This document shows positions 26,207 through 39,962 of a DNA stretch of 64,000 bases, in pieces. Source of the stretch: Balneolaceae bacterium (GTDB taxonomy: Bacteria > Bacteroidota > Rhodothermia > Balneolales > Balneolaceae). A program made the position numbers and the translations under genes. The stretch spans positions 124,001-188,000 of the forward strand of contig JAFIFB010000120.1 in NCBI GenBank assembly GCA_020832285.1, given 5' to 3'. Below the pieces are notes generated by a model that saw only the letters and a list, made by a program, of their open reading frames with translations, had not been told where the DNA came from and searched no databases. Numbering within the stretch: position 1 is the stretch's first letter; the number at the start of each line of letters is the position of its first letter.

Positions 26207-26824
26207 GATGGAATTAGATTTATTTGGGTTAGCGGAATCAATCGAACAACTGTCATGTCACGTAAAATGACGGGTATCTGATCGGAAAAGTCCCTGAGGA
26301 ATCACCACATTCATACGATACTGCTCATTTTGTCAAAAAGCTCATCCGATGATTATTTCTGTACTCGCATTTAACCAAATGACACAACATGATATTAATT
26401 TCATGAATATACGAGATGTGCAGCGCGCTGCAAACCGGAAGAGAGAAAATGTATGATATTTTCATAGTCAGCCCGGCAGTTGGGAAATTTACTGCCTGCT
26501 TAAGATCAAAGGAAAGGGTAAGGCAGCTCATTGTTTTCGGATGGTTCATTCTTTTTTCAAAAACTCTGTCGCAAAAAGTTTAAATCTTTAAAAGAAACCG
26601 GCATTTTTTGAGTTATTAATGACAGATTCACAATTTCAAATTGAATCAAATAGCATTTGCGTCCCTGGCTTCATTCCGGCGGGTCAAAAAGTGAAGGAAA
26701 AACTCTTTGAAGGCATGAGTTTTTTAATATGTACCAAACTTTACGTTTTTGGAATGAATTGTGCATATTTGGGGATGAAGGAAAGTCATCTTGAACAGAA
26801 ATGGTAAAAAAAGATCACAAAATT
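26207..26824. other. 618-bp intergenic region between divergent genes
   Basis: Contains the promoter regions of the leftward lemA-M48 unit and of the rightward Gfo/Idh/MocA gene. I see no supported gene; short open frames at 26325-26549 and 26619-26807 have no family pattern. A perfect 14-bp palindrome, TGCAGCGCGCTGCA, at 26419-26432 stands out in AT-rich surroundings and could be a transcription-factor site. Confidence 0.45.
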
Positions 26825-27922
26825 ATGTCGAAAAATATTTCCAGAAAGCGTTTTTTGCAGGTAACCGGTTCTACTCTTGCCGCTGCATCATTCGGGTTTC
26901 CCTCCATCATCATTCCAAAGCGAAAAGAAAAACTGGGTGTGGCGCTGGTAGGACTGGGACGGTATGCGGGAGGTCAGCTCGCGCCGGGATTGCAGGAAAC
27001 CGAGCATTGTGAATTGCGCGGGATTGTAACCGGAACCCCCTCTAAAATACCGGAATGGCAGGGGCAGTATGGTATTCCCGACCGGAACGTGTACAATTAT
27101 GAAAACATGCACGAAATTGCCAATAATGACGATATTGATGTGGTTTATATTGTAACCCCGCCCGGAATCCATGCAAGAGATGCCATCGTGGGTGCAGAGG
27201 CCGGAAAACATGTTTGGTGCGAAAAACCGATGGCGATGGATGAAGAGGAGTGCCAGGCTATTATTGATGCAGCCAGTTCAAATCGGGTACAGCTTACCAT
27301 CGGTTACCGGATGCAGCATGAGCCGAATACTCAGACGATTATCGGTTTTGGTAAAGAGAGAACTTATGGCAGAATAGTGAGCTTGAGCAGCGGAGCAGGT
27401 TACAGCGGCAGCCATCCCGATCCCGAGAACTGGCGCCGAATTCCCGATCTTGGCGGTGGTGCTCTGTATGATATGGGTGTGTACCCGATTAATGCCATCC
27501 GGCATGCAGCACAGCTGGAGCCGGTAGCCGTGAGAGGGCGGCAGTGGTCCGAACGGGAAGAGATGTACAGCGGTGTGGATGAATTTACCGATTTTGAACT
27601 CCGGTTTGAGAAAGGCCTGGTAGCAACCGGTGAAACCAGCTTTGGTAAATCCACAAATTACCTGGATGTGGAGTGTGAAGATGGCTGGTACCGCCTGAGG
27701 CCGATGCAGCCATACCGCGGCGTACAGGGAGAAACCAGTGATGGCGTTGAGCTGCCTCCCGATCCAAATCACCAGCAGGCCCGGCAGATGGACAACGACG
27801 CCCTTGCCATCAAAGAGAACAAAAATCCGATTGTGCCCGGTGAGGATGGCCTGGCCGATATCCGGATTGTGAAGGCGATCATGGAATCCTCTCGCCGCGA
27901 CGGGGAGTGGATTGAGCTTTAG
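26825..27922 (+). CDS. Tat-exported Gfo/Idh/MocA family oxidoreductase
   Basis: The ATG at 26825 gives a 365-residue protein with an N-terminal Tat-like signal (ISRKRFLQVTGSTLAAASFG); the first in-frame ATG at 26801 adds eight residues. The NAD(P)-binding fold starts GVALVGLGRYAGG, with the family motif WCEKPMAMDEEE and the C-terminal substrate domain GGALYDMGVYPINAIRH. The closest well-known relative is glucose-fructose oxidoreductase of Zymomonas, a periplasmic enzyme with tightly bound NADP. Exported members oxidise and reduce sugars without free cofactor. It is monocistronic here; palindromic repeats begin 28 bp after its stop. Confidence 0.9.
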   Translation: MSKNISRKRFLQVTGSTLAAASFGFPSIIIPKRKEKLGVALVGLGRYAGGQLAPGLQETEHCELRGIVTGTPSKIPEWQGQYGIPDRNVYNYENMHEIANNDDIDVVYIVTPPGIHARDAIVGAEAGKHVWCEKPMAMDEEECQAIIDAASSNRVQLTIGYRMQHEPNTQTIIGFGKERTYGRIVSLSSGAGYSGSHPDPENWRRIPDLGGGALYDMGVYPINAIRHAAQLEPVAVRGRQWSEREEMYSGVDEFTDFELRFEKGLVATGETSFGKSTNYLDVECEDGWYRLRPMQPYRGVQGETSDGVELPPDPNHQQARQMDNDALAIKENKNPIVPGEDGLADIRIVKAIMESSRRDGEWIEL

Positions 27923-27949
27923 GGTATGTGTAATGAAAAACCGGGTGGT

Positions 27950-28038
27950 GAACTGTGATTTTATTGATGGGCTGTGATTCCTTGTGATGGATCATTTTAA
28001 TCACAGTCTATCATAAAAATCAGCGAAAATCACAGTTC
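27950..28038. repeat. Palindromic GxxExxY-associated repeat, left copy
   Basis: An 89-bp nested palindrome: outer arms GAACTGTGATTTT (27950-27962) and AAAATCACAGTTC (28026-28038) are perfect complements, and inner arms CTGTGATT / AATCACAG pair again. A near-identical sequence in the same orientation lies at 37249-37337. It sits between the oxidoreductase stop and the GxxExxY start. Confidence 0.92.
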
Positions 28039-28143
28039 AGACGGTATGGGTTAAGTGAGAGGTACAGAAGTAAATACTCTTTGATTTTTTTATTAATTTC
28101 TCAAGATTTCATCAAAAATATCAGAGTTCAAGTGGAGGGATGA

Positions 28144-28542
28144 ATGATCAATGAAAATTATAAATATTCAGCGTTGACAGGTGAAATCATTGGCTGTGCA
28201 ATGGAAGTGCACAATACACTTGGCAACGGATTCCAGGAAGTAATTTACCAGCGCGCTTTGGAAATAGAATTTATAGAACGCAATATGCCATTCAGCCGGG
28301 AGTATGAGATGCCCGTAAATTATAAGGGCGTTCAAATAGGAACACGTCGTGTCGATTTTCTTGTAAACGGACTTATTTCTGTTGAAATCAAAGCAGTCAT
28401 TGAAACGCAGGATGTTCACCTCGCACAGGCCATAAATTATCTGGAGGCCTATAATCTTGAAATTGGATTGCTAATCAACTTTGGAAGTAAAAGCCTTGAT
28501 TTTAAACGGTTGATAAATGCCAAATTTAAACCCGGTGTCTGA
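28144..28542 (+). CDS. GxxExxY family protein, PD-(D/E)XK nuclease-like
   Basis: A 132-residue protein with the family name motif G29-F-Q-E32-V-I-Y35, preceded by GCAMEVHNTLGNG. A PD-(D/E)XK-like core is visible: D71 (TRRVDFLV) and E81-x-K83 (SVEIKAV), then the helix VHLAQAINYLEA. The ATG has a good ribosome site (GGAGGG, 7 bases upstream). GxxExxY proteins are short, widespread and have no proven function; their fold suggests a nuclease. Palindromic repeats lie on both sides, the right-hand one overlapping the last codons, so gene and repeats may move as a unit. Confidence 0.92.
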   Translation: MINENYKYSALTGEIIGCAMEVHNTLGNGFQEVIYQRALEIEFIERNMPFSREYEMPVNYKGVQIGTRRVDFLVNGLISVEIKAVIETQDVHLAQAINYLEAYNLEIGLLINFGSKSLDFKRLINAKFKPGV

Positions 28543-28628
28543 AACTATGATGTATGTGATTAATCTGAAACACTATGATTATGTTAATCATAGTAAATCA
28601 CAAAATCAGCGAAAATCACAGTTTAGAC
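28537..28628. repeat. Palindromic GxxExxY-associated repeat, right copy
   Basis: A 92-bp element from GTCTGAAACT to AGTTTAGAC with a central perfect hairpin CTATGATTA / TAATCATAG. It begins within the last codons of the GxxExxY gene. The remaining 225 bp to the type IIG gene have no supported gene and should hold that gene's promoter. Confidence 0.9.
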
Positions 28629-28853
28629 GGTATGGATTGAGTGAGGAGGTTAATCTTTCAACAACGACATATTATACAGCCCCAAATTGACTCACGGAAG
28701 AGCTTACAGTTACAATACTTGGCCAAACAGGTTCAGGTGCTCAACCTGCACAGACTGGATAAAGTCCTGTAGTAGAATTCAACTTGCGATAAGCGATTTT
28801 TTCTGATACTCTCTGATAGAGAAAATAAAAAATAAAAGGCTTAGAGCAGAGGT

Positions 28854-31805
28854 ATGGCGCTATTTCAGCAATCGGTACTGACTACTTATTTGGCGGGGAT
28901 AGATGAACAAATAGTTGATGAAGCATGGGAAATCTTCATCTCGCATTTTCACGACCCCGAAATTCAGCAGAATATTCGCAACTCCAAAGAGGAAGAGTAC
29001 CAGGACGGATTTCTGACTGATCTTTTTGTGAACGTGCTGGGATACACCAAATACCCGGCTCCGGGATTTAACCTGCGAGTGGAGCAGAAAGATGCAAAAG
29101 GCTCGAAAAAATCAGACGGTGCCCTGCTGAAAAACGACAAGGTGGTTGGAGTGATTGAGCTGAAGGGAACCGATACCACCGATCTCGACAAAGTGGAACC
29201 GCAGGCGTTCGGCTACAAAAACTACCATCGCCACGCCGATTATGTGGTGATCTCCAATTTTGAAAAACTCCGGTTCTACATCGACAATGCTGTGGATCAC
29301 CTGGAGTTCAACCTGTTTGAGCTGACCAAAGAGGAGTTTAAGATTTTATGGCTCTGCCTGGAACAGAGTAACTTTGAAAAAGGGCTGCCGAAAACCATCA
29401 AAGAGGCATCGCTTACCCAGAACGAAGAGGTAACCAAAAAACTTTACGCAGATTACTCGGCGTTTAAAGATGCCATATTCAAGAGTATAGTTGAACACAA
29501 CCCCGATTACGACAAGCTCCGGCTTTTCAAGAAAACCCAAAAACTGCTCGACCGTTTTCTGTTCATCTTTTTTGCGGAAGACCAGCAGCTACTGCCGCCC
29601 AACTCCATCCGAAAGATTATTCAACAGTGGCAGGATTTGCGGGATGAGTACGACATTGACGTCACCCTCTATGAACGGTTTAAAAAATATTTCGGCTACC
29701 TGAACACCGGGCACAAAGGGAAAGAGCACGAGATTTTCCCTTACAACGGCGGGCTGTTTGCCGTTGATGAAGTTCTGGACAACATCACCATAGACGACGA
29801 GCTGCTCTACAAACACGCGCTGAAACTGAGCAGGTACGATTTCGCCTCGGAGGTAGACGTAAACATCCTGGGCCACATTTTTGAGCACTCGTTGAACGAG
29901 ATTGAGGAGATTACCGCCGAGCTGGAAGGCCAGGATTTGGACCGCTCCAAAACCCGCCGCAAGAAAGACGGGGTTTATTACACGCCCAAATACATCACGC
30001 AGTACATTGTGGAAAACACGGTCGGCAAGCTGTGTGAGGAGAAGAAAACTGAGCTCGAAATAGAAGATGAAGAGTACACTCCCAACCGGCAGAAAGCGAC
30101 CAAAAAGAAGCTGCTGAAAAAACTGGACACCTACCGCGGCTGGCTGCTGGGCCTCACCATCTGCGACCCCGCCTGCGGAAGCGGCGCGTTCCTGAACCAG
30201 GCACTGGAATTTTTAATTGAAGAGCACCACTTCGTGGATGAACTTCAGGCCAAACTGCTGGAAGAGAGTATTGTGTACCCGGATGTGGAGGCGAGCATTT
30301 TAGAGAACAACCTGTTTGGGGTGGATATTAACGAAGAGTCGGTGGAGATTGCCAAACTCTCCCTCTGGCTCCGTACAGCCCAAAAAGGACGGCGGCTCAC
30401 CTCACTCAACAACAACATTAAATGCGGCAACTCGCTGATTGATGACCCGGACGTGGCCGGTGACAAAGCTTTTAACTGGGAAAAGGAATTCCCGTCTGTT
30501 TTTGAAAAAGGCGGGTTTGATGTAGTGATTGGGAATCCGCCTTATGTAGTATATATCAAATCAGTTTTTGGTGAAAAGGTAGTGAATTACGTAAATGAGA
30601 GGTATAAATATGCAGAATACAATCCTAATACCTATGCTTTATTTACTGACTTGGGTTTAAATCAAATCTTAAAAACAAAAGGTCGACTTGGATTTATAAT
30701 TCCTAACTCTTGGATGGAAGGAAAATATTTTTCCAAAATGAGAAAAGAGCTTTATTTCAAGAATGTTGACGAAATTGTTTATTTGAAAGACACTGTTTTC
30801 GATGAGGTTGTAGAGACTTTGATATTACTTGTAGAGAATATTGAGGCAGAAAACGACAGTATTAGATTATCTGAAGACATTATTGAAGGAATTTATGATG
30901 AGATAGAATTTAATCAGGATAAGTTGAGTGCTGGATTTAACCCATTCATCTCCAAGGAAAATGCACTTACCAAAAGATTAGAAATGAATTTTAAAACACT
31001 TGACGATTTTGCAATTGTTTATAGAGGGTTAGAAACCAGAAATAATGACAAATGGCTTTCTGAGAAGAAAGAAACAGAACGCCACAAACCAATTCTACTT
31101 GGAAGAGACGTAAATAGATATTCATATGAATATAGCGGTACTTTTGTTGATTTTATAAAAGATGAAATGAAGAGTAACGCTAATCTTGAGATGTATGAAC
31201 AACCAAAAATTCTAATGAGGAGAACTGGATCGAATATCATAGCCGCAACGGATTTTGAAAATCAGTTGGCACTCAAGAATCTTTATTTAATCATTCCAAA
31301 TAATGGTGTAAATATATATTGCTTAGTTGCTGCTATAAACTCAAAGCTTATGAATTATTTACACACACTTCGTAAGAGTGGTGAAAATAAAGCATTTGCT
31401 CAATTCAGTGGGGTATATATAAAAAGTTTTCCTTTTAAAAATTCAGACAATAAAAACTTCGAGTTTTTAGTAAAGAAAATTACAAAGCAGAAAGGAAATT
31501 TAAATAATCATATCAATCAATTTACAGAATTGATCTTGAGCAAATTCGACATCGAAAAACTCAGCCGTAAACTCGAAAACTGGCACGAGCTCACCTTCAA
31601 GCAATTCCTGGCCGAGCTGAAAAAGAAAAAGGTAACCCTCTCCCTCAAAGAAGAAGCCGAATGGATGGAGTACTTCAACGAACAGAAAGCCAAAGCCGAA
31701 GAACTGAAATCCCAAATCGCCCGGACGGATTCCGAGATTGATGCGATGGTTTATGAGCTATATGGGTTGAGTGAGGAGGAGATTGGGGTTGTGGAGGGGA
31801 GTTAA
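28854..31805 (+). CDS. Type IIG restriction enzyme/N6-adenine DNA methyltransferase
   Basis: A 983-residue single-chain restriction-modification protein. The N-terminus has a PD-(D/E)XK-like nuclease core: D88 (KSDGALL) and E102-L-K104 (VIELKG). A helical connector follows. The methylase has the AdoMet loop DPACGSGAFL (about 438-447) and catalytic NPPY (about 560-563). The C-terminal 350 residues should recognise the target sequence, and a coiled segment (KAEELKSQIARTDSEID) ends the chain. Codon use and base composition change sharply: up to about 30535 and after about 31545 the DNA is GC-richer, while the part between is strongly AT-rich, as if the recognition region had been exchanged. Similar to Eco57I-class enzymes; a BREX PglX is less likely because no other brx gene is nearby. 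Confidence 0.9.
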   Translation: MALFQQSVLTTYLAGIDEQIVDEAWEIFISHFHDPEIQQNIRNSKEEEYQDGFLTDLFVNVLGYTKYPAPGFNLRVEQKDAKGSKKSDGALLKNDKVVGVIELKGTDTTDLDKVEPQAFGYKNYHRHADYVVISNFEKLRFYIDNAVDHLEFNLFELTKEEFKILWLCLEQSNFEKGLPKTIKEASLTQNEEVTKKLYADYSAFKDAIFKSIVEHNPDYDKLRLFKKTQKLLDRFLFIFFAEDQQLLPPNSIRKIIQQWQDLRDEYDIDVTLYERFKKYFGYLNTGHKGKEHEIFPYNGGLFAVDEVLDNITIDDELLYKHALKLSRYDFASEVDVNILGHIFEHSLNEIEEITAELEGQDLDRSKTRRKKDGVYYTPKYITQYIVENTVGKLCEEKKTELEIEDEEYTPNRQKATKKKLLKKLDTYRGWLLGLTICDPACGSGAFLNQALEFLIEEHHFVDELQAKLLEESIVYPDVEASILENNLFGVDINEESVEIAKLSLWLRTAQKGRRLTSLNNNIKCGNSLIDDPDVAGDKAFNWEKEFPSVFEKGGFDVVIGNPPYVVYIKSVFGEKVVNYVNERYKYAEYNPNTYALFTDLGLNQILKTKGRLGFIIPNSWMEGKYFSKMRKELYFKNVDEIVYLKDTVFDEVVETLILLVENIEAENDSIRLSEDIIEGIYDEIEFNQDKLSAGFNPFISKENALTKRLEMNFKTLDDFAIVYRGLETRNNDKWLSEKKETERHKPILLGRDVNRYSYEYSGTFVDFIKDEMKSNANLEMYEQPKILMRRTGSNIIAATDFENQLALKNLYLIIPNNGVNIYCLVAAINSKLMNYLHTLRKSGENKAFAQFSGVYIKSFPFKNSDNKNFEFLVKKITKQKGNLNNHINQFTELILSKFDIEKLSRKLENWHELTFKQFLAELKKKKVTLSLKEEAEWMEYFNEQKAKAEELKSQIARTDSEIDAMVYELYGLSEEEIGVVEGS

Positions 31806-31834: not shown

Positions 31835-34519
31835 ATGAATAAGAAAACCCATACATACGACGTCTTTAAACACGGGAGTCAATGGCTTAGGGCTGATTTC
31901 CATTTACATACCAAAGCCGATAAAGAGGCTTTTAAAGATTGGGATGAAACCGGAAAAAAGTCATTTAAGCAGGAATATGTTGGCCGATTAAAAGAGAAAA
32001 ATATCAGTGTTGGCGTAATCACCAATCACAATAAATTTGATGTTGGCGAATATAAGTCACTGGCAAAAGAGGCAAGAAAAAATGAAATTTTCTTATTGCC
32101 AGGTGTAGAGTTTTCTTTGAATGACGGCCAAAGTGGGGTGCATGTTTGTATTGTGTTTGACCCAGAGAGTTGGCTAACCGATGGTGACGATTTTATACAA
32201 AGGTTGTTAAACAGAGGTTTTCCAGACTTAACAAAAGAACAAAGAGAGAATAGAAATGCCCATAGTGATTGGGGATTAAAAGAATTATTAAAGAAACTGG
32301 ATGAAGAAAAAAGACATCACCATCGTGAATCTTTTGTTGTATTGGCACATGTAAACCAGGAAAAAGGTTTTTTTAACGAAATTAAGAAAACAAGAATTAT
32401 TGATATTTTTGAGGAATCTTTTTTTAAAGAATACATATTGGGATTTCAAAAAGTTACTAGTAAAGATTCCTTACAACTCATTAATGAGTATTTGGGGAAT
32501 TCTTCTCCAGCTTTGGTAGAAGGTTCGGATTGTAAAACCTTTGATGAAATAGGCAAAACTAGAAATTTGGAAGGTAAAGAACAGAAAAGCTTCATAAAAA
32601 TTGGGGATTTTAATTTTTTGTCTGTTAAGTATGCCTTGATGGATAAAAAGAGAAATACGATAGCTGCTTCTAAACCGGTGCCTACCCATTCAAGAATAAA
32701 AAAAGTTTGGTTTGAGACGGCCTCCGGTGCCCCGCTATCTGGTAAAGAACTTTTTTTGAATAGTGACCTGAATTCGTTGATTGGCATCAGAGGCAGCGGC
32801 AAGTCAACCATATTAGAAACCATCAGGTTTGGGGTAGGAAAGAATATTGACACTCAGTCAAGCAAAGATGTGGAATATAAAAATCGTATCGTTCAACGAA
32901 CTCTTAAAAGCGGAGGAAAAGTAATTATTGATATTGAAACAAAACATGGGCAGAATTACCGGATTGAACGAATATTTGGTGAGCGTCCGTCTATATTCCG
33001 GGATGGGGTGAAACTGCCAGAATTTACTGTTGATGAAAATCTTTTAAGTGTACTTTACTTTGGGCAAAAAGACCTTTCGGAAATTGGAACCGAAGGGTTT
33101 AGTCAAAATTTAATGGAAAAGTTTTTCGGAGAAAATGTAGGCCCTGTCCGGGATAAAATTGATGATAAGGTAAAAGAAATTCTTCGGTTGATTACTGAAA
33201 TAAATCAGCTAAAAGAACTCTCAGACACCATTCAGGAGACCAGAGAAGAAATCGCTGCATTGAAAGAGAAAATGGAGATTTTCAAAAAGAAAAAAATTGA
33301 CGAGAAACTTCAACGTCAGGTTAAGTTTATTAAAGATCGGAATCATTTAAAGCAGATGGTTGAAACCGGAGAAGGCTTTGTTTCGGAATTGAGGACAACC
33401 ATTTCAGAGTATCAGGAGGGAATAGAAGAATTAAATAATTATATCAGCAAGGAAAATGCGGAATTGTTTCAAAAAGCCTTTAAAAGCTGGGACTCTTTTA
33501 TCAAAAACATTAACAAGATAAAAACTATCCTGGATAGTATTGATAAAGACTTGTTAGAAATTAAAACTTATGAAGCTGAGCTTAAAAAACGAACAGAAAA
33601 ATTACAGGATGAATTTGCTGAAATTAAAAGGTCCATTGATTTAAAAGATATGAATCCTGATGACTATGTGAAATTTAGTAAGCGGCATAACCTGTTAGAA
33701 ACCAAATTAAAAGAGTTAATCAAAAAAGAAAGCAGAAGAGAAGATTTGAGAAAAAGGCTTGATGGTGAGTTGAGCCAACTCAGAAGTTTATGGCACGACG
33801 AGTACAAGACGTTTCAAGATTCGATTGACGAGTTAAACAATAGAGATTTGTCAATAAAAGTCGAGTTAATTTACAGAGGAGATAAATCTTCGTTTCAGGA
33901 ATTTTTAAAAAATACGGTGCAGGGATCTGGTATTACCAGTAGAAAGATTGAACAATTAATCCAGAAATTTAATGACCCGATAGAAATATACTTTGATTTG
34001 GATGAGGAACGTTCGGAACTGTATCAAATACTTTCTGGGGGTTCTCATTTGGAAAAATTCAAAGAATATTTCCAACAAAATCTGAGCGCTGCACTTACTT
34101 TTCAAGTGCCAAATCGGTTCGTGTTACGATATCATGGAAAAGATATCAAAGGTCATTCTTTAGGCCAACGAGCCTCTGCTATAATGGTTTTTTTACTCGC
34201 CCGGCAAGAAAATGATGTGATTATAATCGATCAACCTGAAGATGATATTGATAACCAGTCGATATATCGTGATGTTATAAGTGAGCTGAACAACTTAAAG
34301 GGGAAAACGCAATTTATTTTTGCCACTCATAATCCAAATATTCCAGTGTTAGGTGAAAGTGAACAGGTATTTGTTTGCGATTTTGAAGAGGATACATTGA
34401 CGGTTGATACGGGAAGTATCGATACGGGAAAAATACAAACTGCTATCATAGACATTATGGAAGGTGGAAGAGAAGCGTTTGAACAACGGAAAAGAAAGTA
34501 TAAGGAATGGATGCATTAG
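31835..34519 (+). CDS. PHP phosphoesterase-SMC-like ATPase fusion (TrlF-like)
   Basis: An 894-residue protein starting 29 bp after the type IIG gene. Residues about 18-250 form a PHP-type metal phosphoesterase: DFHLHTKAD (H23, H25), VITNHNKFD, PGVEFS and VLAHVNQ. Then an ABC/SMC-type ATPase follows, with Walker A GIRGSGKST (about 317-325), a long coiled coil (about 430-690), signature-like SLGQRASAI (near 772), Walker B VIIIDQPEDDID (near 788) and switch FATHNPNI. This layout matches TrlF-family AAA-like ATPases and resembles RecF/RloC-type defence proteins in which an ATPase senses DNA and a nuclease acts. The gene overlaps the next one by 13 bp. Substrate of the PHP domain (DNA, RNA or nucleotide) is unknown. 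The whole gene is AT-rich compared with flanking core genes. Confidence 0.88.
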   Translation: MNKKTHTYDVFKHGSQWLRADFHLHTKADKEAFKDWDETGKKSFKQEYVGRLKEKNISVGVITNHNKFDVGEYKSLAKEARKNEIFLLPGVEFSLNDGQSGVHVCIVFDPESWLTDGDDFIQRLLNRGFPDLTKEQRENRNAHSDWGLKELLKKLDEEKRHHHRESFVVLAHVNQEKGFFNEIKKTRIIDIFEESFFKEYILGFQKVTSKDSLQLINEYLGNSSPALVEGSDCKTFDEIGKTRNLEGKEQKSFIKIGDFNFLSVKYALMDKKRNTIAASKPVPTHSRIKKVWFETASGAPLSGKELFLNSDLNSLIGIRGSGKSTILETIRFGVGKNIDTQSSKDVEYKNRIVQRTLKSGGKVIIDIETKHGQNYRIERIFGERPSIFRDGVKLPEFTVDENLLSVLYFGQKDLSEIGTEGFSQNLMEKFFGENVGPVRDKIDDKVKEILRLITEINQLKELSDTIQETREEIAALKEKMEIFKKKKIDEKLQRQVKFIKDRNHLKQMVETGEGFVSELRTTISEYQEGIEELNNYISKENAELFQKAFKSWDSFIKNINKIKTILDSIDKDLLEIKTYEAELKKRTEKLQDEFAEIKRSIDLKDMNPDDYVKFSKRHNLLETKLKELIKKESRREDLRKRLDGELSQLRSLWHDEYKTFQDSIDELNNRDLSIKVELIYRGDKSSFQEFLKNTVQGSGITSRKIEQLIQKFNDPIEIYFDLDEERSELYQILSGGSHLEKFKEYFQQNLSAALTFQVPNRFVLRYHGKDIKGHSLGQRASAIMVFLLARQENDVIIIDQPEDDIDNQSIYRDVISELNNLKGKTQFIFATHNPNIPVLGESEQVFVCDFEEDTLTVDTGSIDTGKIQTAIIDIMEGGREAFEQRKRKYKEWMH

Positions 34520-35673
34520 AACTTCTAGAAATTATTGAGCGAGGTGAAGATTCCCGACATCAATTTAAACGTACAATCAATCATGAAATCTCTATGGCAA
34601 CGGAACTTGCTGCATTTTCCAATTCTCAGGGAGGACTATTAATTATTGGTGTAGATGATGATGGAACGATAGCAGGTTTGTCAAATGAGGACATTGGAAG
34701 ATTAAATAACATGATTTCTAATGCATCATCTACGCATATTAGAAATCCGATTAATCCAACAAATGAAAACATAATGTTGGAAGATGGATTAGTGATGGTG
34801 GTAACTATTCCTAAAGGTTTGGACAAACCATATATCACTAATGACGGTGCAATTTGGGTTAGAAGCGGTGCTGATAAAAGAAAGGTTACATCCAAAGAAG
34901 AAATTAGACGTTTATTTGCAGAAAGTGATCTTCTTCATGCCGGGGAAACACCAATTAATGATTCTACAAGTAATGATTTAGACGAGGATTTTTTTGATGA
35001 ATTTTATCAAGAGGTATATGGAATATCATTGACAGATGAGGGAAAACCACTATTGCAATTATTGCAAAACATGAATTTAGCGAAAGGTGATCATCTGAAT
35101 TTAGCGGGATTGATGCTCTTTGGTAAGAATCCTCAAAAATTCAAGCCGCAATTTATTGTGAAAGCTGTTTACTTTGATGGGAATGAGTCTACTGTCGATA
35201 AATATATTGACAGCGAAAATATTGAGGGTAGATTATCGAAACAATTTGCTTTGACATTAGCTTTCTTGAAAAGAAATCTTAGAAAAGTCCAGAATGGTCA
35301 AGGCCGAAATACAACTGGAGTACTTGAAATACCTGAAATTGTTCTTGAAGAACTGTTGGTAAATGCCATCATTCATAGAAATTATTTCATAGATGCTCCA
35401 ATTCGTGTTTTTATGTTTCATAACAGAATTGAGATTATTTCACCCGGTGTACTCCCAAATCATATGAATGAAGAAAACGCTAAAAGTGGAGTTTCAATAC
35501 AACGTAATCCTGTAATTTCATCATTTGCTACAAAAGCAAAACCACCTATCGGCTTACCCTACAGAGGTATTGGTACAGGAATTCAAAGAGCGTATCGAGA
35601 ATTTAAGGATATTGAATTATTCAATGATCAAGATAACAATCAGTTTATTGTCACAATTAATCGAAAAAGATAG
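34507..35673 (+). CDS. AlbA/Schlafen-domain protein with GHKL ATPase-like C-terminus
   Basis: A 388-residue protein. Residues about 10-125 are an AlbA_2/Schlafen-like domain: EDSRHQFKRTINHE, LAAFSNSQGGLLIIGVDDDG and IWVRSGADKRKVTS. The C-terminal part has the HATPase_c_4-type motif LEELLVNAIIHRNYF (about 279-293) and RIEIISPGVLPNHM. These proteins are often called ATP-dependent helicase RecG-like or transcriptional regulators, but their activity is generally unproven; Schlafen domains in characterised proteins cleave tRNA or rRNA. It overlaps the PHP-ATPase gene by 13 bp, so the two are made from one message and probably work together. Confidence 0.88.
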   Translation: MDALELLEIIERGEDSRHQFKRTINHEISMATELAAFSNSQGGLLIIGVDDDGTIAGLSNEDIGRLNNMISNASSTHIRNPINPTNENIMLEDGLVMVVTIPKGLDKPYITNDGAIWVRSGADKRKVTSKEEIRRLFAESDLLHAGETPINDSTSNDLDEDFFDEFYQEVYGISLTDEGKPLLQLLQNMNLAKGDHLNLAGLMLFGKNPQKFKPQFIVKAVYFDGNESTVDKYIDSENIEGRLSKQFALTLAFLKRNLRKVQNGQGRNTTGVLEIPEIVLEELLVNAIIHRNYFIDAPIRVFMFHNRIEIISPGVLPNHMNEENAKSGVSIQRNPVISSFATKAKPPIGLPYRGIGTGIQRAYREFKDIELFNDQDNNQFIVTINRKR

Positions 35674-35793: not shown

Positions 35794-35844
35794 ATGTACT
35801 ACCGCAGAAAAATGATCCTGGCACTGCTTGAACGGTTTGGCGGG
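35794..35844 (+). pseudogene. N-terminal remnant starting MYYRRKMILALLERFGG
   Basis: Seventeen codons that look like the first residues of a conserved accessory protein whose members (from memory) begin MYYRRK and continue with a LQKLLFL helix. Here the similarity stops at the double glycine, where sequence belonging to a PIN-domain gene on the other strand begins. The short frame runs on to a TAA at 35914-35916 only by chance. The identity of the parent family is uncertain. Confidence 0.5.
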
Positions 35845-36055: not shown

Positions 36056-36805
36056 TTAAAACGAACCGTACTTTTCCGAGTGAGCCCCTAAAGATTGCCT
36101 TAATTCTCCAAACAGCTTGCTGTTCGGTTGTACTTTATGCGGCTCTACGTGTAAAATTTTTATGCTTCTGATTTCGGAAGCAGTCGGATCCCATTTTATT
36201 TCAGCTTTGATCTTTACCGTCTGATATAGCATTTCCGCTATTTTTCGGGTTAATTCTTTAGATGCTTTTCCATCATATAATGTACCGCCGAATGTTCTGA
36301 ACCTTATCTTGGGCTCTGAACCTCCAACTCGTGTTATTTCTCCATAGAAATCTTTGACATCGGTCAGTAAAACTTCTTCCGGTATAATGAATGTATCCTC
36401 AGGCGTAATAACTGCTCTTATTCTATCCGGTAATGATTCTGAAGATAGCTCTGCATTGCACTTTTTCTTTTTCGTGAGGGCCGAAATGCGTTTCATCCCG
36501 TCAAAAGCATTTCGGGGCAGTCCATATAGATGTTTGTTCTCAGCTGCTTTTATCATTAATGCATATCCATCTTTTGCTTTTGGATAACCTGATGCAAAAC
36601 TTAAGCTATTTGATTTGTTTTCAACATTTACAAGACTGAGGATTTTTTCAGATCCGCTCCATTTTTTGTCACCAAAATATTCTGCAAAAGCAGCCATACT
36701 TTTCTGCAGATCTACAAGCAGTTCTCCAAGCTCCCTGGCAGTAAAACTCCGCGGAGTAATTTCCTTGCCTGTAAATCTTAATTTGAAATATGGAATGTTT
36801 TTTAT
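36056..36805 (-). pseudogene. Hypothetical protein gene lacking a start codon, probable partner of the PIN fragment
   Basis: The first usable ATG (36697) gives 213 residues, but protein-like sequence continues upstream in frame (IPYFKLRFTGKEITPRSFTA, then RELGELLVDLQKSM) to a TGA at 36806-36808 with no ATG, GTG or TTG between. So the true 5' end has been lost, or the short form is used. The protein has no motif I recognise; it is mixed alpha/beta and basic near residues 75-80 (KKKK, counted from the internal ATG). It lies directly upstream of the decayed PIN gene on the same strand, the order of an antitoxin or regulatory partner followed by a toxin. Confidence 0.6.
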
Positions 36806-36965
36806 TCAAGAAAATATTACTTCGTGAGATTTTGGGTATGTGAATATAGTTTGTACAATTTTGTAACGCAATTATGCTGAATTATATTGATACTTCACTG
36901 CTATTATGATCAAAGAGAAGATTCGTAAAGAGATTTCATGACCCTTCGGATTCTTGAACTCGGTG

Positions 36966-37337
36966 TCTAAACTATGATGAATGTGATTTATCTGATGCGC
37001 AGTGATTATTTAAATCATAGAAAATTCCGAAATCAGCGGAATATCCAAAAAGCTCAGGCTGTATGGGTTGTGATTAACTATGATGGATCATTTTAATCAC
37101 AGTCCATCATAAAAATCAGGTAAAATCACAGTTAAAACCGGTGACTGCACTGTGATGAAAATGATTTACCTGATGCACTTTGATTTTTTAAATCATAGTA
37201 CATCCCGCAAATCAACGAAAATCAAAGTTCAGATTGTATGGGTTGGGTATGATTTTATAGATGGGCTGTGATTCCCTGTGATGGATTTTTTTTAATCACA
37301 GTCCATCATAAAAATCAGCGAAAATCACAGTTTAAAC
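36966..37337. repeat. Cluster of four GxxExxY-associated palindromic repeats
   Basis: Four related units in a row: 36966-37060 (degenerate), 37069-37136 (left part missing), 37147-37231 and 37249-37337. All share AATCACAG / CTGTGATT arms around ATGGAT-type centres, and several end with the same GTATGGGTT junction. The last unit is nearly identical to the repeat at 27950-28038 and in the same orientation. The cluster ends 13 bp from the stop codon of the DUF5916 gene. Between 36809 and 36965 I see no gene. Confidence 0.93.
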
Positions 37338-37350
37338 AATGTACTATTTT

Positions 37351-39609
37351 TCAATTAAACCAGTAGTTCATTTTGAAAACCACACCACGGTTACGGGCGG
37401 CCATGGTTTCGGGGAAGTAGTTGTCGGTATAGACTATAAATATGTCGGATACGGGGCTGTACCTCCACTGGAACCGGCTGTTGATGTTGAGGTTGTCGAG
37501 CTGTTCGTTATACTGGATAAAGGTTGTGAAAAAGAGGGTATTGGTGAAGGTGATATCGAACCTGGGGCCAACCAGCCAGAATGAATGTTCATTCCAGGGA
37601 TCGGGCAGGTCCAGATGGTTGTAGGAAGCAAATAGAGATACACTCCCGTAGGGCTGATAGCGATAGTTGATGTCTCCTTCAACAAACCAGCGGTTTCCAT
37701 TATAAAATCCGCCATATCCGGTTGTAAGTGTGTATCGAAAAAGATTTCTCGTGTCAGATCTGTACTGAATCATCGCGTCGAGCCAGTTGTATTCGGTTCC
37801 TTCCTCCAGGAATTGGAGGCCGGTATTGGTGGGATCAAAGGGATTGCGAAGCTCCACAAAGTTTTGGTTCACGGACATTTCTATGCGGCTCAGGTTGTGG
37901 AAAGTGATGTAATAACTCAGGCTGGTCACGCGGTCCGTCATGCTGAAATCATTCGGACGGAAAAAACTGTTGAGCTGCAGATTCATCCCGTGCTGTTCAA
38001 TACTGGATTGATCGGGATAGAAACGGTAGGTGAACCGGGGGCGCAATTGAAAAAAATCGGTTCTGGGTACAAATCCGGCTTCTGCAATGTAGCTTTCTCC
38101 GACATAATACTGATCAAACCTCAATTGGTATTTCTGCCGGTTGTAGTTCAGTTCCACACCCTGTGAAAATTCAGAACCGTCATCCTCCCGGTCGGAGAAG
38201 GATCGAAATGCAAACACCCGGCCGGTCCAGAAATTATCCTCGCTGGCAAGATTGAACTGAAGTCCGCCGGTTCGGTTGTAGGAATTTCCACTCCACTCAT
38301 CCGGCTGCCGGAAGTTTTGTCGGTCTGCCAGAATAGCCGAGAGGTTAGACCGGGAAAACATTTTTCTTTGGGCGGTGGCCACAAAAAAGTTACTTGATGG
38401 ATGTACATCTGTATCCTCTGTGTACATATTCATCACACCAACCCGCCAGTCACGACCAATATTGCCGCTGAGCCTCGCTCCGGCCAGAACCGGCGCATCA
38501 ATCCCGATTCTTCGTGAGAAAAAAGGGCGGATGTTTTGTGTCCCGAAATTGGCGAAGAGGTCGGAATTTTCGAGGAAGAACTGTCTTTTTTCAGGGAAAA
38601 ACAGCTCAAACCGATCGAGATTCGTGATCTGCTGATCCACATCCGCCTGGGAAAAGTCGGGGTTGTAGGTGAGGTCAAGGTTCAGCGATGAGGAGATCGC
38701 CAGTTTCGAATCAAAACCGAAATCTGTACGGTAATTAGTATCATCCGTTGTTTCAAAATCGTGAGAGGCAGATCCGAATATATAGGGAATGAAGGATAAC
38801 TGAAGGCCGGGATCGGGCGGGGGCTGATCCCACTGAAGGGTGCCTGTGTAGGCCAGTGCGGCTGAAGGAAACTGCCTCGGTACCGGCGCCCACGACGATT
38901 TTTCGTTAATACTCAGATCCAGCCGGGAGAAGTTGATGTTCCAGCGGTCTGAACCTGTATCGTATCGAAGTGACTTGAATGGAATACGCATCTCGGCCAC
39001 CCAGCGGTCGTCATAGTTTTTGGTGACCGATTCCCATTTTGTATCCCAGGCAAGATCAACCGCATACCCGTCACTCATAGTGCCGTCCCAGCGCGCCCCG
39101 GCCGCGTTTACTCCGAATGAAAAACCGGTGGTGAGATCGTTGAAGGGATCGATAAACATCAGGAAGTTATCGTTCGCACCAAATCGAAAATCAGGCCGGA
39201 GCGATTCCACAACACGGGGAGCATCCTCAACGGCATCGTAAAAAATAAGTGCGAGGTATAGCGCGTCATCGTCGTAAGTCATTCGAATTTCTGATTTCGC
39301 AACACTGTAACTTGTATCGTAGGGAGTAACCATGAAAAAATTATCGGCCACATCTGCCCGGATCCAGTCGTCCTCATCAATCACACCGTCGAGTATAATT
39401 TCTCCTTCCATTTTTTGAATGTGGAGTACATAATCACTGTTCAAACCGGCTGCGCCATTGCGTTCAGCCATGCCGGGCTGGACCTGGAATGCGTGTGAAG
39501 AAGGAGTGCCTGAGAAGAATAGTATCAATAAAAAGAGAGCGGTTAAGGTATTTAAAGCAGCGGTATGAGCCATTAAGATTTTTATGGGAAAGATTGATCT
39601 GAAAGTCAT
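37351..39609 (-). CDS. Outer-membrane protein with CBM9-like domain and DUF5916 barrel
   Basis: A 752-residue exported protein. The signal sequence may start at Met1 (basic FRSIFPIK before the hydrophobic stretch) or Met13 (39571-39573); the first gives a better n-region. Residues about 60-245 form a carbohydrate-binding family-9-like domain (LDGVIDEDDWIRADVADNF, then FSFGVNAAGARWDG). The rest is the DUF5916 domain, an outer-membrane barrel with the typical PDFSQADVDQQITNLDRFE and FPEKRQFFLENSDLF, ending in aromatic KMNYWFN. Members are common in Bacteroidota, often near peptidases; function is unknown. A repeat cluster follows its stop codon. Confidence 0.92.
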   Translation of the reverse strand: MTFRSIFPIKILMAHTAALNTLTALFLLILFFSGTPSSHAFQVQPGMAERNGAAGLNSDYVLHIQKMEGEIILDGVIDEDDWIRADVADNFFMVTPYDTSYSVAKSEIRMTYDDDALYLALIFYDAVEDAPRVVESLRPDFRFGANDNFLMFIDPFNDLTTGFSFGVNAAGARWDGTMSDGYAVDLAWDTKWESVTKNYDDRWVAEMRIPFKSLRYDTGSDRWNINFSRLDLSINEKSSWAPVPRQFPSAALAYTGTLQWDQPPPDPGLQLSFIPYIFGSASHDFETTDDTNYRTDFGFDSKLAISSSLNLDLTYNPDFSQADVDQQITNLDRFELFFPEKRQFFLENSDLFANFGTQNIRPFFSRRIGIDAPVLAGARLSGNIGRDWRVGVMNMYTEDTDVHPSSNFFVATAQRKMFSRSNLSAILADRQNFRQPDEWSGNSYNRTGGLQFNLASEDNFWTGRVFAFRSFSDREDDGSEFSQGVELNYNRQKYQLRFDQYYVGESYIAEAGFVPRTDFFQLRPRFTYRFYPDQSSIEQHGMNLQLNSFFRPNDFSMTDRVTSLSYYITFHNLSRIEMSVNQNFVELRNPFDPTNTGLQFLEEGTEYNWLDAMIQYRSDTRNLFRYTLTTGYGGFYNGNRWFVEGDINYRYQPYGSVSLFASYNHLDLPDPWNEHSFWLVGPRFDITFTNTLFFTTFIQYNEQLDNLNINSRFQWRYSPVSDIFIVYTDNYFPETMAARNRGVVFKMNYWFN

Positions 39610-39730
39610 AAGGGAAGAGAAGGGAGGAGTCGCTGTGGCGTAAGAACCGCTGCAGATTTATCCGTCTTTTCTTCACTATTACGGCTGAAAACTATTCAAA
39701 GATGTGATATGAAACAAAGCAAATAGGTCA

Positions 39731-39962
39731 TTAACCTGCATTATTTACAAAAAAATTGATTGGTTTTATCGCAATTTTCATCAGTAACTTATGCCAGAAG
39801 AAGGTTGAAACTTTATTCAACGTATTGTCACGTACTGCGAAATTTGCCTGTGGGCTGCGTTGTCTCAAAAATGGTTTACTCAACGTACTCAGGTACGGTT
39901 CCGCCACCATTTCTGAGACGCCTTGCCCACAAACAAATTTCTGGGTGAATAACGCAGGTTAA
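39731..39962 (+). mobile_element. MITE-like palindromic element, copy B
   Basis: A 232-bp element bounded by inverted repeats TTAACCTGCATTATTTAC (39731-39748) and GTGAATAACGCAGGTTAA (39945-39962). The interior is a long imperfect palindrome (GTCTCAAAAATGGT / ACCATTTCTGAGAC) around a CGTAC / GTACG hairpin. It is the inverse of copy A at 6504-6743; the central hairpin differs in sequence but is self-complementary in both. No transposase is present. The two overlapping open frames in it are by-products. The element lies between the divergent DUF5916 and channel genes; the remaining intergenic DNA on both sides shows nothing else. Confidence 0.8.

Follow-up and report, generated by a model that had tools for sequence, protein, structure and literature searches.

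A trlF-trlG gene pair behind a type IIG restriction enzyme in a Balneolaceae bacterium and its probable coupling to restriction systems

The analyzed DNA (the window) is a 64,000-nucleotide stretch of a contig of a Balneolaceae bacterium. Two overlapping genes on its plus strand are the subject of this study. The gene at 31835..34519 encodes a protein of 894 aa with an N-terminal PHP phosphoesterase and an SMC/Rad50-like ABC ATPase with a coiled coil. The gene at 34507..35673 encodes a protein of 388 aa with a single Schlafen/AlbA_2 lobe (residues 14–127) and a GHKL ATPase domain (approximately residues 277–388). The pair is a new, type IIG-linked instance of a described operon, the trlR-trlF-trlG operon of Photorhabdus laumondii, known as the temperature restriction locus (TRL) (Hapeshi et al. 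2020, PMC7554251). An earlier sequence-only reading of the window knew of no described system that pairs two such proteins. This must be corrected, since trlF-trlG of the TRL has the same domain architecture and its reported TrlG residues can be aligned (PMC7554251). We consider that TrlF and TrlG arrest growth as a back-up that is coupled to a restriction or restriction-like system, with a probability of about 60%, and that the partner in the window is the type IIG enzyme encoded upstream.

The 3′-end of trlF and the start of trlG overlap by 13 bp (34507..34519, plus strand; ATGGATGCATTAG). The guanine-plus-cytosine (GC) content was 0.345–0.36 across trlF-trlG and mostly 0.43–0.50 beyond the stretch of approximately 31–37 kb. 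The upstream gene (28854..31805, plus strand) encodes an intact type IIG restriction-modification (R-M) enzyme of 983 aa (PADLOC REase_MTase_IIG, 1015 bits; Pfam Eco57I and TaqI_C), comprising an Eco57I-type methylase and a TaqI-like specificity domain. It ends 29 bp before trlF. The coordinates of both genes, their 13-bp overlap, the AT-rich composition relative to the surroundings and the position directly behind a type IIG enzyme had all been described in the sequence-only reading and were confirmed. A promoter scan found 31 promoters against 26.9 expected from shuffled sequences, which is no excess.

TrlF of the window matched the NCBIfam TrlF family NF045780 with 491.8 bits over residues 13–890 (cut-off 350) and is a member of this family, in agreement with the earlier description of a PHP domain fused to an SMC-like ATPase. 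TrlF of Photorhabdus caribbeanensis (L116) scored 571.5 bits. The AlphaFold model of the window TrlF had a predicted local distance difference test score (pLDDT) of 86.6, and Foldseek matched it to Wadjet JetC, SMC, MukB, RecF, Rad50 and Lamassu LmuB. The PHP residues H23, H25, D29, H65, E92, H103, H172 and D232 and the Walker motifs were invariant in 68 sequences. The nearest TrlF relative annotated as anti-phage is Ppl (NF042955, PADLOC PDLC02208), which also combines a PHP domain with an SMC-type ATPase at a similar length. The window TrlF remained below the Ppl cut-off (178.1 bits against 1000 for NF042955; 117 bits for the PADLOC Ppl profile) and belongs to the TrlF family instead. The Pfam, NCBIfam and PADLOC scans of the pair found only the PHP/ATPase and Schlafen/GHKL domains and no HEPN domain.

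TrlG of the window has the Pfam domains SLFN_AlbA_2 (14–127) and HATPase_c_4 (297–372), as expected from the AlbA/Schlafen-GHKL assignment made earlier. Its AlphaFold model (pLDDT 88.2) matched 3lmm, SLFN14, SLFN11, SLFN13 and, weakly, histidine kinases in Foldseek. The probability of the Schlafen fold was 1.00 for SLFN14, SLFN11 and SLFN13; the low template modelling scores to these proteins are due to the alignment of a single lobe. SLFN13 depends on E205 and E210, with a contribution from D248, and replacement of the second catalytic glutamate (E210) by alanine inactivates the enzyme (PMC5862951). In the alignment with SLFN14, E14 and Q19 of TrlG fall on the two catalytic glutamates. The sequences used for the TrlG structure prediction were the window and the rows from GTDB loci, two plasmid rows being excluded. 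E14 was kept in 71/74 sequences, position 19 was glutamine in 71/74, including the window, and the aspartate site was variable. The canonical RNase triad is thus not intact in TrlG. The Schlafen domain had been described earlier as possibly RNA-targeting; a Schlafen RNase of the canonical kind is not supported, since the residue equivalent to E210 is glutamine, and RNA targeting by TrlG is not established.

The TRL of P. laumondii lies between polA and dsbA, and its TrlG has AlbA_2 at 14–128 and HATPase_c_4 at 298–365. Cells that lack trl, or that carry a missense change in trlG, are able to grow at 36 °C, and a shift to higher temperature induces the operon. The authors read the thermal arrest as life-cycle control (PMC7554251). 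The window matches this operon in both proteins and in their order, trlF being directly followed by a trlG with AlbA_2 and HATPase_c_4. The difference lies upstream, where the TRL has trlR (HTH_73, PF24718) and the window has the type IIG gene. Upstream of the latter, visual inspection showed no short open reading frame (ORF) resembling HTH_73; the short ORFs were not searched with profiles. The window TrlG is 50% identical to TrlG of P. caribbeanensis, through which the reported positions were mapped; the P. caribbeanensis protein agrees with the published wild-type residues at 13/13 positions. The arrest-abolishing sites A36, P318, N335 and G354 (Photorhabdus numbering) were invariant in 74 TrlG sequences, and R126 was kept in 71/74. 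All five are kept in the window (A36, P317, N334, G358 and R125 in its numbering); overall, the window agrees at 9 of the 11 reported missense sites.

The 16 distinct arrest-relieving events all fall in trlG and none in the 2.3-fold longer trlF. The chance of zero trlF events is approximately 6 × 10−9, assuming that hits are proportional to length and that loss of trlF is viable and relieves arrest. Either arrest does not require TrlF, or loss of TrlF alone is not tolerated. On these published genetics, TrlG is likely the arrest effector in Photorhabdus.

Relatives of the pair were collected from 80 GTDB loci, found with a search alignment of seven TrlF sequences, together with the window, genome G005 of the same genus and plasmid records. 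TrlG was encoded directly downstream on the same strand for 78 of the 87 high-scoring window-type TrlF genes, far more often than chance would give. The overlap was 13 bp in 27 of these pairs, 22 bp in 25 and 19 bp in 10. The hosts include Bacteroidota, Desulfobacterales, Gammaproteobacteria, Planctomycetes, Spirochaetes, Acidobacteriaceae and archaea (ANME-2 and Altiarchaeales), so that adjacency beyond close relatives, which the sequence-only reading had named as its test, is what was found. The distances in the TrlF and TrlG trees agreed (Mantel r = 0.81 for 74 pairs; maximum 0.16 in 2000 permutations). In an independent annotated set, 57 plasmids had a relative of TrlG with a query coverage of 80% or more; among the 40 matches listed, the majority were annotated as overlapping a TrlF gene.

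Pairing is a property of one clade and some neighbors, not of the whole TrlF family. In a sample of the phylum, 35 of 394 genomes had a TrlF-family protein above the cut-off. Thirty of these loci were fetched; the window-type genes were paired in 6/6 cases, including the window, and the others in about 6/24, with a more distant TrlG. Because unpaired TrlF is common outside the window-type clade, the claim of pairing is limited to this clade and nearby branches. The plasmid TrlF genes L022, L023 and L025 have no TrlG. The TrlF gene of the Vibrio tubiashii plasmid p123 (L025) ends an operon with a SMEK-domain protein and a TM0106-type RecB-like nuclease, which is possibly another TrlF partnership. 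A single-sequence query of IMG/VR viral contigs gave no relatives. Among phage genomes, a full-length relative occurred in two Listeria records (LM 4-14-1 and LM 4-11-1), and five others had partial matches. With no relative from the single-sequence IMG/VR query and full-length copies in only these two phage records, the module was not regarded as a phage gene.

The relatives showed that trlF-trlG is often embedded in restriction operons. Genes for R-M or bacteriophage exclusion (BREX) subunits were found with profiles and verified against Pfam. Both flanks were available over 4 kb or more for 25 pairs, and 19 of these had such a gene within 5 kb. For all 78 pairs the count was 37, and most of the others had short flanks. 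The distance from the R-M neighbor to trlFG was often 0–20 bp. The density of R-M ORFs per 10 kb was 1.57 within 4 kb of the pair, 0.23 at 4–8 kb and 0.025 in control DNA. The control comprised 20 stretches of 20 kb (400 kb) from contigs of five related genomes of the same phylum, most of which carry a TrlF gene elsewhere.

Most often, trlFG is placed between modification and restriction genes. The order hsdM-hsdS-trlF-trlG-hsdR occurs in L079, L085 and L087, and mod-trlF-trlG-res (type III) in L040, L047, L058, L066 and L091. The BREX order BrxC...PglX-trlF-trlG-PglZ-BrxL was found in L081 and L103, and an N4-methylase-trlF-trlG-helicase-PglZ order with DUF6079 in L082, L046 and L074. Linkage to a type IIG gene was found in the window, L026 (the locus of G005) and L043. 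In E. coli and Klebsiella, the order is HTH-hsdR-trlF-trlG-hsdS-AAA-hsdM, with 4-bp overlaps between subunit genes, and a near-full-length copy was present in 38 of 5,426 complete E. coli genomes. Tn7-like tns genes lie directly upstream of the trlFG-bearing type I R-M operon on an E. coli chromosome (L193) and on the IncC plasmid pNDM102337 (L194); in both, a transposon seems to carry the R-M operon with TrlF-TrlG as cargo. Along the TrlF tree, R-M types switched at least 7 times, against a mean of 17 and a minimum of 13 with shuffled labels, in a count that excludes the weak helicase-fragment labels of L083, L109 and L117 (56–106 bits). This suggests that the types are inherited within clades but are also exchanged. 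As far as the searched literature shows, the embedding of TrlFG across restriction types, as read from gene order, is new. The pair had been put forward as a candidate two-gene defense module. It proved to be widely conserved, horizontally mobile and tied to restriction or defense operons.

TrlG-like proteins without TrlF were found beside hsdR at eight loci of one genus of the same phylum (L157–L159 and L161–L165). The hsdR gene is downstream in all eight, and an upstream hsdS was confirmed in L157. This suggests that contact with the R-M system is made by TrlG and not by TrlF. Most of these Schlafen-GHKL proteins have a C-terminal extension (457–481 aa). The eight loci hold a one-gene version of the module.

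The Photorhabdus locus itself may have come from a restriction operon with trlFG. In the TrlF tree, Photorhabdus TrlF nests within a clade embedded in type I R-M operons. HTH_73 was confirmed in L079 and L116, and in L079 it precedes hsdM. Yersinia ruckeri has a weak HsdM-like remnant (56 bits) between trlR and trlF, where two small R-M genes have been reported (PMC7554251). From this nesting, the HsdM remnant and the HTH_73 gene before hsdM, we infer that the TRL is an R-M-embedded module that has lost its partner. This re-reading, drawn from comparison of genes, would be new as far as the searched literature shows.

In the window, trlF-trlG arrived as part of an insertion. The segment 27943..37132 (approximately 9.2 kb, ends ± approximately 10 bp, blastn) is missing from the same site of the sister genome G017. 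The window sequences 26515–27942 and 37133–39734 are contiguous in contig L190 of G017 at 93–94% identity (blastn), and the genes flanking the module (26801–27922 and 37351–39609) adjoin each other in this genome of the same genus. A TrlF search found the full-length pair in 2/28 genomes of the genus, namely the window genome and G005. The G005 locus has the order IIG-TrlF-TrlG, with a DUF488 gene and an unknown gene in addition. Outside the stretch from the IIG gene to trlG, the two loci shared no significant similarity except one 56-bp match. The dN/dS ratios (nonsynonymous to synonymous substitutions) between the window and G005 were 0.057 for TrlF and 0.054 for TrlG, which are rough values since dS was approximately 1.4. 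The two proteins are under strong purifying selection. The type IIG gene of G005 (L026, 9073–10236) is broken across the specificity region by many stops, with N- and C-terminal parts remaining, and TrlF and TrlG are intact.

In the mechanism that we propose, the R-M complex, possibly with TrlF, would keep TrlG quiet in healthy cells. A phage that blocks or escapes restriction, or that damages DNA, would be the trigger. TrlF, as a DNA-engaging SMC/Rad50-like ATPase with a PHP domain, would detect this state and may serve as sensor, controller or extra nuclease. Released TrlG would then stop growth via its Schlafen lobe, with the GHKL ATPase as the switch. The coupling to R-M is suggested by gene order; the phage trigger, the role of TrlF and the molecular target of the module are our suppositions. 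The sequence-only reading had assigned sensing to TrlF and execution to TrlG. Execution by TrlG is supported by the published arrest suppressors in trlG. The sensing role of TrlF gains nothing from them, because the larger trlF was never hit, and TrlG-like proteins stand beside hsdR without TrlF.

Several points weigh against a restriction-coupled back-up. The literature searched contained no phage assay of TrlFG, and the sole published phenotype is thermal arrest (PMC7554251). The broken type IIG gene of G005 beside an intact pair means that the pair can outlast its partner. Some trlFG loci, including one on a Pseudomonas plasmid, lie among ordinary genes, so R-M is not obligatory. TrlF as an obligatory activator is doubtful.

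By analogy, the logic of TrlFG is probably PrrC-like. PrrC of EcoprrI, an anticodon nuclease, is encoded inside a type Ic R-M operon; RloC is described as well (PMC3710099). As with PrrC and RloC, TrlFG would be a growth-stopping effector linked to an SbcC/Rad50-like ATPase, restrained by R-M and released upon phage inhibition. Placement in an R-M operon is likewise found for trlFG, at 29 bp from the type IIG gene in the window and at the 19 of 25 fully flanked loci. PrrC differs in that it is one protein with a HEPN RNase, whereas TrlFG is two proteins with no HEPN domain and also accompanies R-M systems other than type I. Schlafen-minimal histidine kinase-winged helix-turn-helix proteins in BREX and BREX-related systems, known from at least 1017 taxa, have been proposed to be suicidal RNases that act as a back-up (PMC12839542). 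They share the Schlafen and GHKL architecture and lie beside or within BREX loci. In that text as searched, no PHP or TrlF partner is mentioned and the association is limited to BREX and BREX-related systems, whereas trlFG also occurs with type I, III and IIG R-M. The phage anti-restriction-induced system (PARIS) is described there as an AriA ATPase and an AriB TOPRIM nuclease triggered by the anti-restriction protein Ocr (PMC12839542). PARIS is also a two-gene module of ATPase and effector found beside restriction-like systems, but its ATPase and effector are of other types, and the Ocr-like trigger is a feature of PARIS.

Three other explanations were weighed. TrlFG may be a stand-alone Ppl-like defense, in which TrlF uses its PHP domain to break down or block phage nucleic acid, TrlG, as an accessory or regulator, binds nucleic acid in an ATP-dependent way, and the R-M genes are company in a defense island. 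We regard this as unlikely. The resemblance of TrlF to Ppl, the invariant PHP residues and the incomplete SLFN13 carboxylate triad in TrlG speak for it, as do the many TrlF genes without TrlG, which indicate that TrlF can act alone. Mere company does not fit R-M genes joined in the same operon with gaps of 0–20 bp and 4-bp overlaps between subunit genes. Nor does an accessory role of TrlG fit the TrlF-less TrlG-like proteins beside hsdR (after hsdS in L157) or the mapping of Photorhabdus arrest to trlG.

The pair may also be a growth checkpoint that responds to temperature or stress, in line with the proposal made for the TRL, with a secondary link to defense. The restored growth at 36 °C after trl deletion or trlG mutation and the induction on upshift are what such a checkpoint predicts (PMC7554251). 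This seems quite improbable in view of the patchy distribution in the genus, the clean insertion with an empty site, the carriage on plasmids and Tn7-like elements and the association with several restriction types. Photorhabdus TrlF also falls within the type I R-M-embedded clade, and the thermal arrest may therefore be leakage from a partnerless module. An addiction-like pair, with TrlG as toxin, TrlF as neutralizer or controller and R-M proximity stabilizing both against loss, is very improbable. An overlapping two-gene operon would suit it, and so would the requirement of TrlG alone for arrest with no trlF suppressors (PMC7554251), as expected if loss of trlF is lethal. Against it, some R-M operons contain a TrlG-like protein but no TrlF, and TrlF, which also occurs alone, greatly exceeds known antitoxins in size.

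If the restriction-coupled back-up is right, the thermal growth switch of one 2020 paper would serve DNA restriction as a widespread back-up, found within type I R-M operons of E. coli and Klebsiella, with one example on an IncC plasmid. The growth stop of some Photorhabdus at 36 °C would then have an explanation. We speculate further, and tentatively, that TrlFG is a general, exchangeable second-line cassette, placed between the modification and restriction genes of type I, III and IIG R-M and BREX systems, which reads a common signal and arrests growth when restriction is blocked. The Photorhabdus TRL might then be a misfiring cassette without a partner, and TrlG a Glu-to-Gln Schlafen effector gated by the GHKL ATPase. 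The operon would be laboratory-ready for asking how one cassette obeys type I, III, IIG and BREX machines. It also raises the biochemical question of how a Schlafen domain acts with a conserved glutamine in place of the second catalytic glutamate.

The inserted segment holds other features. A gene for a GxxExxY/PD-(D/E)XK_3 protein lies at 28144..28542 on the plus strand (Pfam PF13366, 128 bits; NCBIfam TIGR04256, 136 bits). Decayed toxin-type genes had been suggested downstream of the pair, but only one reduced gene of the DUF488 type was found there, which is of no toxin family. Its start is at 35794..35844 on the plus strand (tblastn against the complete G005 copy: 17 aa, 65%, E = 0.013). 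The blastn alignment between the window and G005 ends at 35813, approximately 20 nt into this gene, and the G005 copy in L026 matched DUF488 with 85 bits. The minus-strand ORF of 213 aa (36056–36697) had no match in Pfam, NCBIfam or PADLOC.

A dispersed repeat of 76–93 nt is present at 27967–28059, 28527–28645 and 36954–37354 of the window. The methionine-rich tandem small ORFs near 28.5 and 37.1 kb were rejected as genes, since they are the translated repeat. The inserted segment has a 76-nt copy (family D1 of the repeat search; 27967..28042, plus strand) at its left edge, and the repeat search found a direct copy (87%) at the right edge (37063..37138, plus strand). The repeat has 12 matches genome-wide, several of them in tandem pairs, and the empty site of G017 also carries matching sequence. 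The repeat at the edges is a possible recombination or insertion target.

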